64,000 nucleotides of DNA, taken from NCBI RefSeq assembly GCF_024345395.1, contig NZ_JAGQBA010000003.1, forward strand, positions 1 to 64,000. The letters run 5' to 3'. Positions 12,469 to 15,373 of this stretch are shown here, one piece after another. Each line of letters starts with the position of its first letter. Position 1 is the first letter of the stretch. A program made the translations under genes and the position numbers. A model generated the notes under the pieces. The model saw only the letters and a list, made by a program, of their open reading frames with translations. It did not search any database and had not been told where the DNA came from. Origin of the DNA: Cyanobium sp. Tous-M-B4 (GTDB lineage: Bacteria; Cyanobacteriota; Cyanobacteriia; PCC-6307; Cyanobiaceae).

Positions 12469-12771
12469 ATGCAAGAACTGACCAACCGTCAGCTAAAGCT
12501 CGATCGCATTCCCGATCCCGATGGCGACCTGCGCAAGTGGGAGATGTTCGCTCACACGATTAATGGTTACGAGGTGGCAGGGAGCTTTTAACACTGCGCG
12601 GCTCTCTATAACGACAACAGCGCCACCACCCTCACTGAATTGCGCTGTGCGCTGTTTTTTGCGGCCCGCAAAGAACGTCACAGCGCCGGTGGCCCCTGTG
12701 ATGAATCCCATGGGGCGCGAGGTCTGCTGCGCCGCATCCGCGAGAAGGTGGCCGCAGGGGAGCTGGAGTGA
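12469..12771 (+). pseudogene. small gene interrupted by an in-frame TAA
   Basis: An ATG five bases after the VWA stop opens a 100-codon frame. It reads MQELTNRQLKLDRIPDPDG, then AHTINGYEVAGSF, stops at TAA (12589-12591), and continues in the same frame as CAALYNDNSATTLTELRCAL, later LLRRIREKVAAGELE, ending at TGA 12771. Protein-like sequence on both sides in one frame indicates a nonsense mutation; a single base change (GAA to TAA) would restore it. The family is not recognised. A downstream restart could still yield a shorter product. Confidence 0.65.
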
Positions 12772-12775
12772 ACCG

Positions 12776-12949
12776 ATGCCAGAAGATCACGAGCGGATCT
12801 CGATGCAGGAGCAGCGCCGCATTCACACCCGAGCGCTAAGCGAATCGGGACCGCCGGCAGCGGGTGAAACCAAGCCGCAAGAGGAGTTCCGGCTGGAATG
12901 TGAGGCCGTAGGAGCCAATTCCGAGCATTCCGGGTCGATCCTGAACTGA
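12776..12949 (+). CDS. truncated paralogue of the 15.2-kb small gene
   Basis: 57 residues from an ATG 4 bases after the broken gene. The first 43 residues (MPEDHERISMQEQRRIH, then ALSESGPPAAGETK and RLECEA) match the gene at 15110-15373 closely (97 of 114 bases identical by my count). The C-terminus then differs: the partner continues SRDRATAERLGITLVYEFPFD while this one ends in unrelated sequence (SEHSGSILN). I infer loss of its own 3' end where the AT-rich island begins. Charged, helical, cytoplasmic; function unknown. Confidence 0.6.
   Translation: MPEDHERISMQEQRRIHTRALSESGPPAAGETKPQEEFRLECEAVGANSEHSGSILN
12794..12907 (+). repeat. direct repeat copy A (114 bp) left of the AT-rich island
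   Basis: Matches 15188-15301 in the same orientation without gaps, with 17 differences in 114 bases counted by eye (about 85% identity). It is the coding core of two paralogous small genes that bracket the three-gene island. Confidence 0.75.
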
Positions 12950-13024
12950 ACCCTGATCATTAATGAGGCACTCAGAAATACCCCAATAGAATTGTCGCTC
13001 TATAGATAGTAAGCAATATGTCGG

Positions 13025-13052
13025 GGTTCCAGACGCGCACAAGACTGGAACC
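13025..13052 (+). other. inverted repeat at the left edge of the island
   Basis: A perfect 8-bp inverted repeat GGTTCCAG (13025-13032) / CTGGAACC (13045-13052) with a 12-base loop lies in the gene-free stretch 12950-13172. No T-run follows on either strand, so it is not a clear terminator; it may be a regulatory hairpin or a protein-binding site. The rest of that stretch shows nothing I can name. Confidence 0.4.
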
Positions 13053-13172
13053 TCAGATAGCCTCCGCCTCTTGTGGGATGTTCCTTAACCAGATCTGGCC
13101 CTGGATATTTCACCTTAAATATTCAACTCGAAGTCGGCACTAACACATGCAAACAAAAGGGGAGCCGATTGC

Positions 13173-13664
13173 TCAATTAATCTCTTTCGCCTCTGCAAGC
13201 GCCGCTTTCATGGGTAAAACGTACTGCTTATTATCGAAATCAAGCAGGGTCGTTTGTCGATCACCAAATTCATCACGATAGACAATCGTGAATACGTGAA
13301 TGTGCTCAACTTTGGTAAAAAGCAGGCCTATGATACCAATACGGCCAGCGAGGTCCCAGTCGCGCTTACGCAGACTAGAATCAGAGTAATTCCAATGAAC
13401 AATATCTCCGTAGTTTATTTTGACCGATCGCCCAGTTCTAACGAAGTTGACCTTCATAAACTTACGGTAAAAGCTTACATTGCAAATATCCTTCGAATTA
13501 ATATCGCTAAGGCATTGGAGGTCGGTGAACTCTTCAGCGGCTCGCGCGGGAGCCTGCATGAAGTAGATACCGCCCGATGCAACACTGATGGCAGTTATTC
13601 CGGCGCAAGTTGCTACAGAAAGCTTTTGCAGGCATGAATGCATAATACGAGGATGAGCTTTCAC
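13173..13664 (-). CDS. exported hypothetical protein, related to 14496-15011
   Basis: 163 residues; an N-terminal hydrophobic segment (about 15-40, ending APARAAEE) looks like a signal peptide. The mature part begins with two cysteines (LQCLSD...DICNV) and has a core IGIIGLLFTKVEHIHVFTI followed by YRDEFGDRQTTLLDF. The same layout occurs in the 171-residue protein two genes upstream (IGLLGFLATKK..., FRDDRGKKRTAFIRF), so they are probably paralogues. Codon usage is AT-rich compared with neighbours, a sign of transfer. It lies downstream of the CsgG-like gene in the same direction. The function is unknown. Confidence 0.72.
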   Translation of the reverse strand: MKAHPRIMHSCLQKLSVATCAGITAISVASGGIYFMQAPARAAEEFTDLQCLSDINSKDICNVSFYRKFMKVNFVRTGRSVKINYGDIVHWNYSDSSLRKRDWDLAGRIGIIGLLFTKVEHIHVFTIVYRDEFGDRQTTLLDFDNKQYVLPMKAALAEAKEIN

Positions 13665-13691
13665 ATGAATCGAGAATGATTTTTCGGATAT

Positions 13692-13710
13692 AGGGGGCGA
13701 GGAGCCCCCT
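13692..13710 (-). other. hairpin between the CsgG-like gene and its downstream partner
   Basis: A perfect 7-bp stem AGGGGGC (13692-13698) / GCCCCCT (13704-13710) with a 5-base loop sits in the short spacer of the island operon. It is very GC-rich in an AT-rich setting. No T-run follows on the transcribed strand, so partial termination or mRNA processing is more likely than full termination. Confidence 0.45.
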
Positions 13711-13738
13711 CCTCGACATTGGACAGCTTAATTATTAA

Positions 13739-14458
13739 TTACTGAGTTTTATCTTGCATAAATTCTACTATCTTGTCTATAGTATCATAGAAGGCAATTT
13801 TCGTAGCATCCATTGTACTGCCACCACTGAATACCTGCATGCCAGTAATACCGTCTAGTCGGTTGGCGCGATCTTTCGTCACTTCCCTGGATCGGCCAGA
13901 AAAGGTTTTAGAAGCAATTATATCTTCTTCGGCGGTGCTTATGATATCAACTTTGACATCAACTTCTGCATCGCTGTTGACCTCAGTCTTAACACTCGGC
14001 CCGCCTAAGCCAAATAGCATGCCAAAAGAAGGGGCAAATTTAGTACGAGCCTCGCTATTAGCCGATTGCTTAAGAATTACTGGGCGAAGAATATAGCGTG
14101 AGCCCAACTTTTTACCCGCAACAATAAGCTCATTCATATTTGAATCACTTGGAACGCCCTTGATGGCTTTTTCTACCTTGAACCAAGCAACAGTTGTAAT
14201 TCCACCGTTGCGAACAGACTGATTTATGACTTCTGTAGCAAATTCAGCAAGTGCGGAGCCTTGTCCAGATTTATCCGAGACCGGCATCAGGATGACCTTT
14301 CGAGCCGTTGTGGATTTAATTCCCCTTAGGGTCTCGCCGGAAGCCGGTTTTGCAGAGACTGGCTTAGCTTTGGTCTGCTGAGCAAGAGCGCTGCCGGTTA
14401 CGCTCAGCGCAAAGACAGCAGAGGCAAGGGCCAGGGAAACTTGGCGAAAGCGAACCAT
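13739..14458 (-). CDS. CsgG/LpoB-like exported protein
   Basis: 239 residues with a clear signal peptide (VFALSVTGSALA cleaved before QQ). After a basic, Ser/Ala/Lys-rich linker the CsgG-like domain begins at about 50: RKVILMPVSDKSGQGSALAEFA, then VRNGGITTVAWFKVEKAIKG, and AGKKLGSRYILRPVILK, followed by a domain in which EVDVKVDIISTAEEDI matches the family's last strands. CsgG forms the curli export channel, and LpoB-type relatives are periplasmic activators. There is no lipobox Cys and no evident amphipathic barrel insert, so a soluble periplasmic CsgG-fold protein is likelier than a pore. It is AT-rich, and central in the three-gene island. Confidence 0.75.
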   Translation of the reverse strand: MVRFRQVSLALASAVFALSVTGSALAQQTKAKPVSAKPASGETLRGIKSTTARKVILMPVSDKSGQGSALAEFATEVINQSVRNGGITTVAWFKVEKAIKGVPSDSNMNELIVAGKKLGSRYILRPVILKQSANSEARTKFAPSFGMLFGLGGPSVKTEVNSDAEVDVKVDIISTAEEDIIASKTFSGRSREVTKDRANRLDGITGMQVFSGGSTMDATKIAFYDTIDKIVEFMQDKTQ

Positions 14459-14495
14459 AAGGGTTTTGTTTAAATTAAATTTAGAAAACAGTAGG

Positions 14496-15011
14496 TCAGA
14501 TCCCTGTCACAGGAGTGACGCTTACAGGATTGTCCCTGTCGCCAGTGATACTAGGATCCATGGTGCGAAGAAAACCGCGAAAGTCTTTACCGAAAGAATC
14601 AGCAGCTTTCATATTCACGAAGCGTATGAATGCAGTACGCTTTTTCCCCCTATCATCACGAAATTCGATGCCGAAGTCCACCGTACCGGCCTTTTTGGTA
14701 GCAAGAAAACCGAGTAGACCAATAGGACCAAACAGAATCGTCGTGGCTGCACCAATTAGGTGATTCGACTCTCGACCTGTATCGTCGTAGATCTTGGTGT
14801 CGACGTAATTTGTCTTGTCTATGCTCAGAAAGTCAGTAGGCAAGTTGGCTTCCAGCTGTTCCGGGCCAATGACGACGGTGCAGGGCTCATAGCGGGTGTA
14901 ATAAGAGCAGATCGCGCGATGGGAGGATGCCCTAGCTACGGGAGCCAAGGCAGTAATCATGCAAAACAGCAGAGCGGTTACGGAGGAAAACCGCCGTGAT
15001 TGGAGATCCAA
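14496..15011 (-). CDS. exported hypothetical protein, related to 13173-13664
   Basis: About 171 residues from a TTG at 15011 (an ATG 17 codons later is too deep in the signal peptide to be preferred). The signal peptide is LLFCMITALAPVARASS. The mature protein has two early cysteines (AICSYYTRYEPC), a membrane-like or buried hydrophobic stretch TILFGPIGLLGFLATKK and a strand pair FGIEFRDDRGKKRTAFIRF. These match the order of features in the gene at 13173. It is the first gene of the island operon, 37 bases upstream of the CsgG-like gene. No family recognised. A periplasmic or outer-membrane partner of the CsgG-like protein is inferred. Confidence 0.72.
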   Translation of the reverse strand: MDLQSRRFSSVTALLFCMITALAPVARASSHRAICSYYTRYEPCTVVIGPEQLEANLPTDFLSIDKTNYVDTKIYDDTGRESNHLIGAATTILFGPIGLLGFLATKKAGTVDFGIEFRDDRGKKRTAFIRFVNMKAADSFGKDFRGFLRTMDPSITGDRDNPVSVTPVTGI

Positions 15012-15109
15012 GCCTGTAGCAATCCCCCAAAAGATTTAATATCAAATGTTTAGCATCTCTTAAGCCTTCTTGTAAAGCCCTGCGGCGGCAGTCTCTTCTT
15101 GTATCAATT

Positions 15110-15373
15110 GTGTCCGCATGGCCAAGCCATGGCCAGCCTGATGGAAGTGCAGCGGCACCTCGGCGGCACCCCGATGATCAACCCGAGCGGATCTCGATGG
15201 AAGAGCAGCGCCGCATTCACAACCGAGCGCTGAGCAAGTCAGGCCCTCCTGCAGCGTGTGAAACCAAGGAGCAGGAGGCCTACCGGCTGGAATGTGAGGC
15301 CAACATCTCCCGCGACCGCGCCACCGCCGAGCGCCTTGGCATCACCCTTGTCTACGAATTTCCCTTCGACTGA
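15110..15373 (+). CDS. small hypothetical protein (intact paralogue of 12776-12949)
   Basis: Up to 87 residues. The conserved part starts at ERISMEEQRRIHNRALS and ends RDRATAERLGITLVYEFPFD. By comparison with the copy at 12776, the homologous ATG (15174) is out of frame here because 4 bases are missing, so translation must start at an upstream GTG (15110) or at the internal ATG in ISMEEQ. The first 25 residues are therefore doubtful. Charged, cytoplasmic, function unknown. It sits immediately right of the AT-rich island. Confidence 0.62.
   Translation: MSAWPSHGQPDGSAAAPRRHPDDQPERISMEEQRRIHNRALSKSGPPAACETKEQEAYRLECEANISRDRATAERLGITLVYEFPFD
15188..15301 (+). repeat. direct repeat copy B (114 bp) right of the AT-rich island
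   Basis: The partner of 12794-12907, same orientation, no gaps, about 85% identical by hand count. The two copies are 2.4 kb apart and enclose the three minus-strand genes. Confidence 0.75.

Follow-up and report, generated by a model that had tools for sequence, protein, structure and literature searches.

An AT-rich insert carries three genes for exported proteins

The window, by which we mean the whole 64-kb stretch of DNA that was analysed, contains three adjacent leftward genes that encode p163, a CsgG-like protein and p171 (Table 1). A preliminary description had presented them as AT-rich genes for exported proteins, and the open reading frames were indeed found where it had placed them. 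Each protein starts with a hydrophobic segment of the signal-peptide type, a call made with a hydropathy heuristic and not with a trained predictor. The start codon of p163 was taken to be a GTG, an ATG at 13643 being equally possible. The region covered by the trio (13173-15011) has a G+C content of 46.8%, compared to a mean of 63.7% (sd 3.1) in windows of equal length that avoid the insert; the lowest equal-length window outside the insert has 54.5%. Only 8 of 1244 windows had a G+C content at or below that of the trio region, all 8 overlap the island, and the trio region is the G+C minimum of the 64 kb. Third-position G+C was 42-53% in the trio, 82% in the VWA gene to the left, 77% in the SIMPL gene to the right and 56% in an ion-channel gene further to the right.

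Table 1. Features of the locus and of related loci
Feature	Locus	Position	Strand	Basis
Small gene, left copy, 3′ part replaced at the insertion	window	12776..12949	+	alignment with L075, L076; own-genome search
Inserted AT-rich segment	window	12908..15169	.	flank alignment by blastn to L075/L076; G+C
p163, exported, modelled PH fold, invariant Cys pair (families A2, A6), 163 aa	window	13173..13664	-	ORF; AlphaFold2, Foldseek, VIA-align; adjacency
CsgG-fold exported protein (families A1, A5), Sec-type N-terminus, no lipobox, 239 aa	window	13739..14458	-	ORF; profile match; Pfam in relatives; model fold
p171, exported, remote p163 paralogue, invariant Cys pair (families A3, A7), 171 aa	window	14496..15011	-	ORF; hhalign; adjacency
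Small gene, right copy, 3′ end intact, own start lost	window	15167..15373	+	alignment with L075, L076; own-genome search
Third gene c3, beside trio	L028, L048, L036, L037, L039			
Third gene c11, beside trio	L033-L035			
Small exported-looking protein, helical by eye	L033	6143-6796	+	
Small exported-looking protein, helical by eye	L034	9623-10132	-	
Small exported-looking protein, helical by eye	L035	3725-4210	-	
Small exported-looking protein, helical by eye	L039	8887-9336	+	
Small exported-looking protein, helical by eye	L053	9046-9549	+	
Small exported-looking protein, helical by eye	L046	6756-7133	+	
Small exported-looking protein, helical by eye	L057	6789-7169	+	

The trio got to this place by insertion into a site that is unoccupied in relatives. 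The insert measures about 2.26 kb, has a G+C content of 47.3% and is not present at the same site in genomes of the same genus; its boundaries are alignment ends, accurate to about 20 bases. In two such genomes, G045 (L075) and G158 (L076), the left flank aligned by blastn up to 12906/12907 and the right flank from 15170/15184 to 15378, and both flanks map onto overlapping parts of one unbroken stretch, in which the small gene occurs once and is intact. In G106 (L073) the two flanks are joined, with about 2.97 kb missing and the small gene among it. None of the 15 other genomes of the genus within the 400-genome family draw has the CsgG-like gene.

The copies of one small gene on both sides, mentioned in the preliminary description, are real and mark the insertion. 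They share 83-86% identity over about 120-130 bp (83% over 132 bp in one alignment) and are the only two matches in the genome of 2.74 Mb, with no third. At 83-86% identity, the flanking copies are not a fresh target-site duplication; they would have originated by recombination with a donor that had its own version of the small gene. The three genes occupy most of the insert, the remaining open reading frames being short or overlapping them, and none of the insert's open reading frames was recognised as a transposase or integrase gene. From the earlier view of a mobile or recently acquired unit the insertion therefore stands, given the empty sites in the same genus, whereas neither a mobility gene nor a fresh duplication was found to go with it. 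A search for sigma-70-like promoters between 12700 and 15500 gave none, which is weak evidence in either direction. Read by eye, the last 1.3 kb of L074 (G126), which correspond to this chromosomal position and lie upstream of the SIMPL gene, contain a transposase-like end together with an HNH-like fragment and remains of the small gene.

The middle protein has a CsgG-type fold

The middle protein had been described as CsgG-like, with a search by PF03783 as the proposed check and the lack of a CsgG-family hit as the outcome that would refute it. The window protein had no Pfam match at E<=1, PF03783 included, and PF03783 found no match in its genome, while 4 of 14 control genomes were matched. 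Its relatives, on the other hand, did match PF03783, 6 of the 13 members of the family doing so at E<=1 (lowest E 4.6e-5), and it is only by way of these relatives that the middle protein survives the proposed refutation. An hhalign comparison of the family profile with canonical CsgG proteins of cyanobacteria gave E 5.9e-6 across 81 columns; the canonical proteins in turn match PF03783 (E 2.6e-40) and E. coli CsgG (E 1.3e-7). None of the 13 members matched LpoB (PF13036) at E<=1, and a sequence search of solved structures gave nothing at E<=10 for the CsgG-like protein or for its alignment A1.

An AlphaFold2 model of the CsgG-like protein was obtained with medium confidence (pLDDT 72.4, pTM 0.62), nearly all of residues 5-49 having a pLDDT below 50. 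Foldseek matched the model to CT253, PelC, HpaA, CsgG, FlgT and LpoB at E 2e-7 to 1e-4, with the CsgG pre-pore structure 4uv2 at E 4.5e-6; TM-scores on the query were modest, at 0.25-0.46 among the matches listed. In VIA-align the Z-scores ran from 13.8 to 8.2 among the 50 matches listed. CsgG 6lqh reached Z 10.2 (rmsd 3.7, 144 aligned) and LpoB Z 11.1, and the LptE rows lay at 8.3 to 8.9; TolB and TraT were also among the fold matches. CT253, FlgT, PelC and TolB outscore CsgG 6lqh, so the fold match holds at the level of the superfamily only. The CsgG superfamily includes proteins that form neither pores nor rings, such as the TolB N-domain, LpoB and LptE. The model and the profile comparisons together make a CsgG-type fold and superfamily well supported for the middle protein, as had been proposed, and it likely belongs to the pore-forming CsgG branch.

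CsgG has two membrane-spanning beta-hairpins per protomer. In the model the first hairpin consists of strands 120-141 and 156-174; it is extended and has an apolar tip of low confidence at a position common to canonical CsgG and E. coli CsgG. Where the second hairpin would lie, the monomer model is helical and some members are rich in Ser/Gly, so that this part does not clearly span the membrane. The constriction of CsgG is formed by Tyr51, Asn55 and Phe56 (PMC6957492); in the present family strand 1 is followed by a short, variable loop, with no reliable residue-level alignment to E. coli CsgG there.

p163 and p171 are related, and p163 is modelled as a PH fold

The kinship of the two outer proteins, claimed earlier, was borne out by BLASTP (37% identity over 57 aa, E 1e-6 for a single comparison) and by profile-profile comparison with hhalign (E 2.1e-6; 5.3e-5 with a wider alignment). 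When the three proteins of the window and the two copies of the small gene were compared to Pfam, PHROG and NCBIfam, nothing usable was found (weak matches at E 0.02 to 0.3 only), and among solved structures the best sequence match of the p163 alignment A2 had an E of only 0.29.

The AlphaFold2 model of p163 (pLDDT 75.8, pTM 0.59) has strands at 37-45, 51-58, 62-67, 73-77, 81-94, 110-123 and 129-136 and a helix at 139-151. These seven strands form a sheet sandwich closed by the C-terminal helix, which is the topology of the PH-like superfold. Foldseek gave the PH domain of Sin1 as best match (E 2.9e-4), with only 4 matches at E 0.001 or better. VIA-align gave the N-domain of SSRP1 (Z 12.4, 96 aligned, rmsd 2.6), and domains with PH, PTB, FERM-F3 and FACT/Rtt106 PH titles made up most of the matches listed. 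p163 is thus modelled as an exported PH fold. Structure prediction, which the preliminary description had put forward, therefore yielded a CsgG fold for the middle protein and a PH fold for p163 from models, and p171 would be expected to have the PH fold as well by its homology to p163.

Both proteins have an invariant pair of cysteines (13/13 members of A2 and 14/14 of A6 for p163; 16/16 of A7 for p171), which would form disulphides. The window's p163 is 64% identical to its counterparts in the nearest group, the CsgG-like protein 51% and p171 42%. p171 is the fastest-evolving of the trio, the window protein having 42, 25, 25 and 18% identity to the four groups. A match of p171 to RRM domains (3 of 9 members, best E 2.7e-4) and a weak one to RNA-binding protein 40 in the PDB (E 0.04) were judged to be due to chance, the protein being exported.

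The trio recurs sporadically with conserved linkage

Scattered genomes of Prochlorococcus and its relatives carry the same trio. In a first search, 18 of 251 family genomes were matched: the own genome, 12 strong matches and 5 weak ones, the weak ones being canonical CsgG proteins. With the alignment A1 the CsgG-like gene was found in 16 of 400 family genomes, 3 of which were unmatched in the first search, and presence among genomes, which the preliminary description had proposed to check, is thus patchy. p163 was found in 17 of the 400, namely the same 16 and G224, where it is a fragment with stops. p171 was also found in 17: in 15 of the 16 carriers of the CsgG-like gene, the sixteenth being cut by a contig end, and in G041 and G638. 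The p171 match in G219 runs across one stop, that in G041 is 283 bases away from the end of its contig, and that in G638 is a solitary weak relative.

A single window protein searched against named bacterial genomes (contig scan) gave no match, and the A1 alignment in the same scan gave 13 loci, all in Prochlorococcus. Ten of these 13 were taken as duplicates of genomes in the family draw and 3 were additional, giving 18 distinct relatives. In a sample drawn across the phylum, A1 was found in 3 of 386 genomes, all 3 in this family, and A2 in 1 of 117 sampled genomes, which was the own genome. A phage origin was also considered; it was rejected since neither the CsgG-like protein nor p163 had a match in phage records and neither A1 nor A2 had a relative in viral contigs.

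The preliminary description had named scattered, unlinked genes in relatives as a refutation; the same triplet occurs elsewhere in picocyanobacteria and its genes are not scattered. p163 adjoins the CsgG-like gene in 18 of the 18 distinct relatives, and p171 lies on the opposite side of it in all 17 that could be tested, the contig of L048 beginning inside the CsgG-like gene. The trio is codirectional in the window and 7 relatives (with only two genes visible in L048). In the other 11 of the 18, p163 and p171 hold their sides and both point against the CsgG-like gene. Since the sides are held despite the opposed partners, it is the linkage that is conserved and not a single transcript.

In the tree of the CsgG-like protein the codirectional group is set apart by a branch (93/90); as drawn, the window splits off first within this group. 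In the p163 tree, however, the window groups with L033, L050 and L051 (99/92), although its p163 is 64% identical to the codirectional group and 40% to that of L033, L050 and L051. The p171 tree gave no resolution around the position of the window. Because the trees disagree, we claim neither a single flip event nor a named donor. Pattern search shows no lipobox in the window's CsgG-like protein. With either of two patterns, one of them from PROSITE, or by eye, lipobox-like motifs were found in 6 of the 7 codirectional relatives, the seventh (L048) being truncated by the start of its contig, and in 2 of the 11 others (L033 and L036).

Some carriers and near-carriers differ from this picture. 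In G224 (contig C38, L083) a decayed p163 with several stops lies at about 1341-1646 and no CsgG-like gene was found in the genome, so that this strain likely lost the module. G638 has a solitary exported-looking p171 relative (L084:4630-5076, minus strand; E 3.6e-8) without the trio, hinting that the p171 family extends beyond the module. L028 and L037 have neighbour genes in common and different orientations of the trio, and a tRNA-Ser(cga) lies about 2.9 kb from the trio in L028 (tRNA at 12527) and 0.2 kb from it in L037 (9198). This suggests that the region is a common insertion hot spot.

A third related gene accompanies the trio in some relatives

Directly beside the trio, 8 of the 18 relatives have a third related gene, which belongs to one of two families, c3 and c11 (Table 1). 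The two are clearly akin (hhalign E 3.9e-8). In searches with profiles against single members, c3 found the p171 of L047 (E 1.5e-6) and c11 the p163 of L048 (E 9e-5). By hhalign the link to p163 is weak: against the p163 profile c3 gave an E of 0.0043 and c11 one of 8.7e-5, and c3 aligned with p171 at E 1.7e-5 but over 35 columns.

In L028 (6715-7662, minus strand), next to p163, an exported domain related to p163 and p171 runs on into a Ysc84/SYLF domain (PF04366, E 2.4e-8). In a review of the envelope of Brucella (PMC10787603), the structure of a SYLF domain is shown next to EipA, a periplasmic envelope protein. By analogy this parallel would fit an envelope setting and proves nothing for the trio.

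Comparison with known systems

With CsgG and HfaB (PF03783, the curli channel) the middle protein shares an exported CsgG fold, a profile kinship by way of canonical cyanobacterial CsgG, a first hairpin modelled with an apolar tip and the small exported proteins encoded alongside. It differs in that the window protein stays under Pfam detection and has no lipobox, only a short variable loop after strand 1 and no clear second membrane hairpin, and in that its partners are PH-like. As for the partners of curli (type VIII) secretion, p163 and p171 match no CsgE-, CsgF- or curlin-type family in Pfam or NCBIfam, and no curlin-like gene was recognised beside the trio. PelC, FlgT and TraT, which form outer-membrane rings of the CsgG fold, resemble the middle protein in fold by model comparison and in being small and exported; they have other partners, and no Pel, flagellar or conjugation gene is found among the few annotated neighbours of the trio. 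LpoB, LptE and the N-domain of TolB are likewise similar in modelled fold and periplasmic, but the family has no LpoB match in Pfam and the trio's partners are unlike theirs.

The model of p163 resembles the PH/PTB/GRAM superfold (Sin1 PH, SSRP1, MTMR, FERM-F3) in its seven strands and C-terminal helix. p163 differs from these in being exported, in its invariant cysteine pair and in having no usable match in Pfam, NCBIfam or PHROGs; the solved proteins among the matches listed are eukaryotic by title.

Pelagimyophages are described to carry curli operons with CsgF, CsgG and hypothetical genes (PMC7029224). These operons resemble the trio in combining a CsgG-type protein with small proteins, in their mobile context and in their marine genomes; they differ from it in that the CsgG-like protein and p163 had no phage matches, nor A1 and A2 any in viral contigs. 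In print we found no closer parallel than this CsgF-CsgG operon. The mostly open-access papers searched, PMC10787603, PMC7029224, PMC6957492 and PMC4389571 among them, contained no description of the module, and none on exported PH domains was found among the titles listed.

A proposed envelope module and its alternatives

The reading that we favour, and to which we would give an even chance, is a horizontally acquired envelope module in which a ring or channel of the CsgG fold sits at the outer membrane and has obligatory periplasmic partners of the PH fold. Proteins of the CsgG type are the building blocks of gated export channels and of envelope rings, and PH folds are best known from inside eukaryotic cells. 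All three proteins would be exported, and the CsgG-fold protein would most likely form a ring on the inner surface of the outer membrane; a putative lipid-anchor motif is present in the CsgG-like protein of the closest Prochlorococcus relatives and not in that of the window. The two PH-fold proteins, presumably braced by disulphides, may dock on the ring in the periplasm as obligatory subunits, a role that could be compared to that of CsgE and CsgF, which serve CsgG and have another fold. Some relatives would add a third related subunit, once with a SYLF domain, and the assembly would probably move or anchor something at the cell surface. We infer ring formation, outer-membrane location, physical contact and transport.

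In a more specific form, which we put forward only tentatively, the trio would be an undescribed picocyanobacterial outer-membrane machine for export or assembly. It would combine a CsgG-fold channel with exported PH-fold subunits braced by disulphides, of which two are always present and a third often, in one case fused to SYLF, and would travel as a movable cassette among Prochlorococcus and its relatives. If this is true, two exported PH-like proteins in strict linkage with a CsgG-fold protein would represent a new envelope machine in the kin of the most abundant phototrophs. It would also give a function to gene families whose window members have no usable match in Pfam, NCBIfam or PHROGs.

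LpoB is an activator of peptidoglycan synthase, and PH and SYLF domains have been linked to lipid binding. The trio might form a channel-free periplasmic complex for regulation or lipid handling, in which an LpoB- or LptE-like CsgG-fold protein acts together with PH-fold proteins that bind lipid or protein. LpoB (Z 11.1) and LptE (8.3 to 8.9) are among the fold matches, a SYLF domain occurs in a neighbour, and the window's CsgG-like protein has no lipobox. We nevertheless regard this complex as unlikely: none of the 13 members matches LpoB in Pfam at E<=1, a core cell-wall regulator would be odd in only 16 of 400 genomes, and no penicillin-binding or Lpt gene was recognised among the 10 neighbour proteins scanned.

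Less probable again is that the CsgG-like protein is a true outer-membrane channel with p163 and p171 as its cargo, secreted as subunits of a surface coat or adhesin. CsgG does secrete small proteins encoded next to its own gene, the apolar tip of hairpin 1 lies at the place common to canonical and E. coli CsgG, and p171 evolves fastest, as is often the case with surface proteins. However, p163 is the best conserved of the three to the nearest group (64%, the CsgG-like protein having 51% and p171 42%). Folded PH-like proteins are also unlike the unfolded, repetitive substrates of the curlin type, and the second-hairpin region, modelled as helical and rich in Ser/Gly in part of the family, does not clearly span the membrane. 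As p163 is well conserved and folded, a role of p163 and p171 as secreted cargo becomes less likely than that of subunits in the favoured envelope module.

We see only a slim chance that the trio is best understood as an island for surface variation or defence, which alters the cell surface and spreads by lowering phage adsorption or grazing. Its patchy presence, its insertion at an otherwise unoccupied site, the decayed p163 in G224 and the common neighbours of L028 and L037 near tRNA-Ser(cga) would all agree with such an island. PADLOC, on the other hand, found nothing of note in the 7 proteins searched (best E 0.014, for p171), and the proposal describes an ecological role, not a mechanism, and is compatible with the favoured module. 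That three unrelated exported genes came together by accident as passengers is hardly credible: the insert is foreign by composition, but the genes are adjacent in 18 of 18 relatives across deep divergence despite changes of orientation, and they co-occur strictly.

Other small genes near the trio

Small exported-looking proteins that appear helical by eye are encoded beside or near the trio in several lineages (Table 1). A common origin of three families of small exported neighbours (c10, c32 and c116) was considered and is unsupported, the hhalign E-values ranging from 0.001 to 0.094. In L034 (5403-6155, plus strand), about 0.6 kb from p171, two adjacent small genes encode repeated apolar motifs of the IGIxPMG type. 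An apolar-repeat gene as cargo was set aside, because the repeats were seen in one lineage only. The first of these repeat genes matches PF01744 (E 3.2e-17) and DUF3721.
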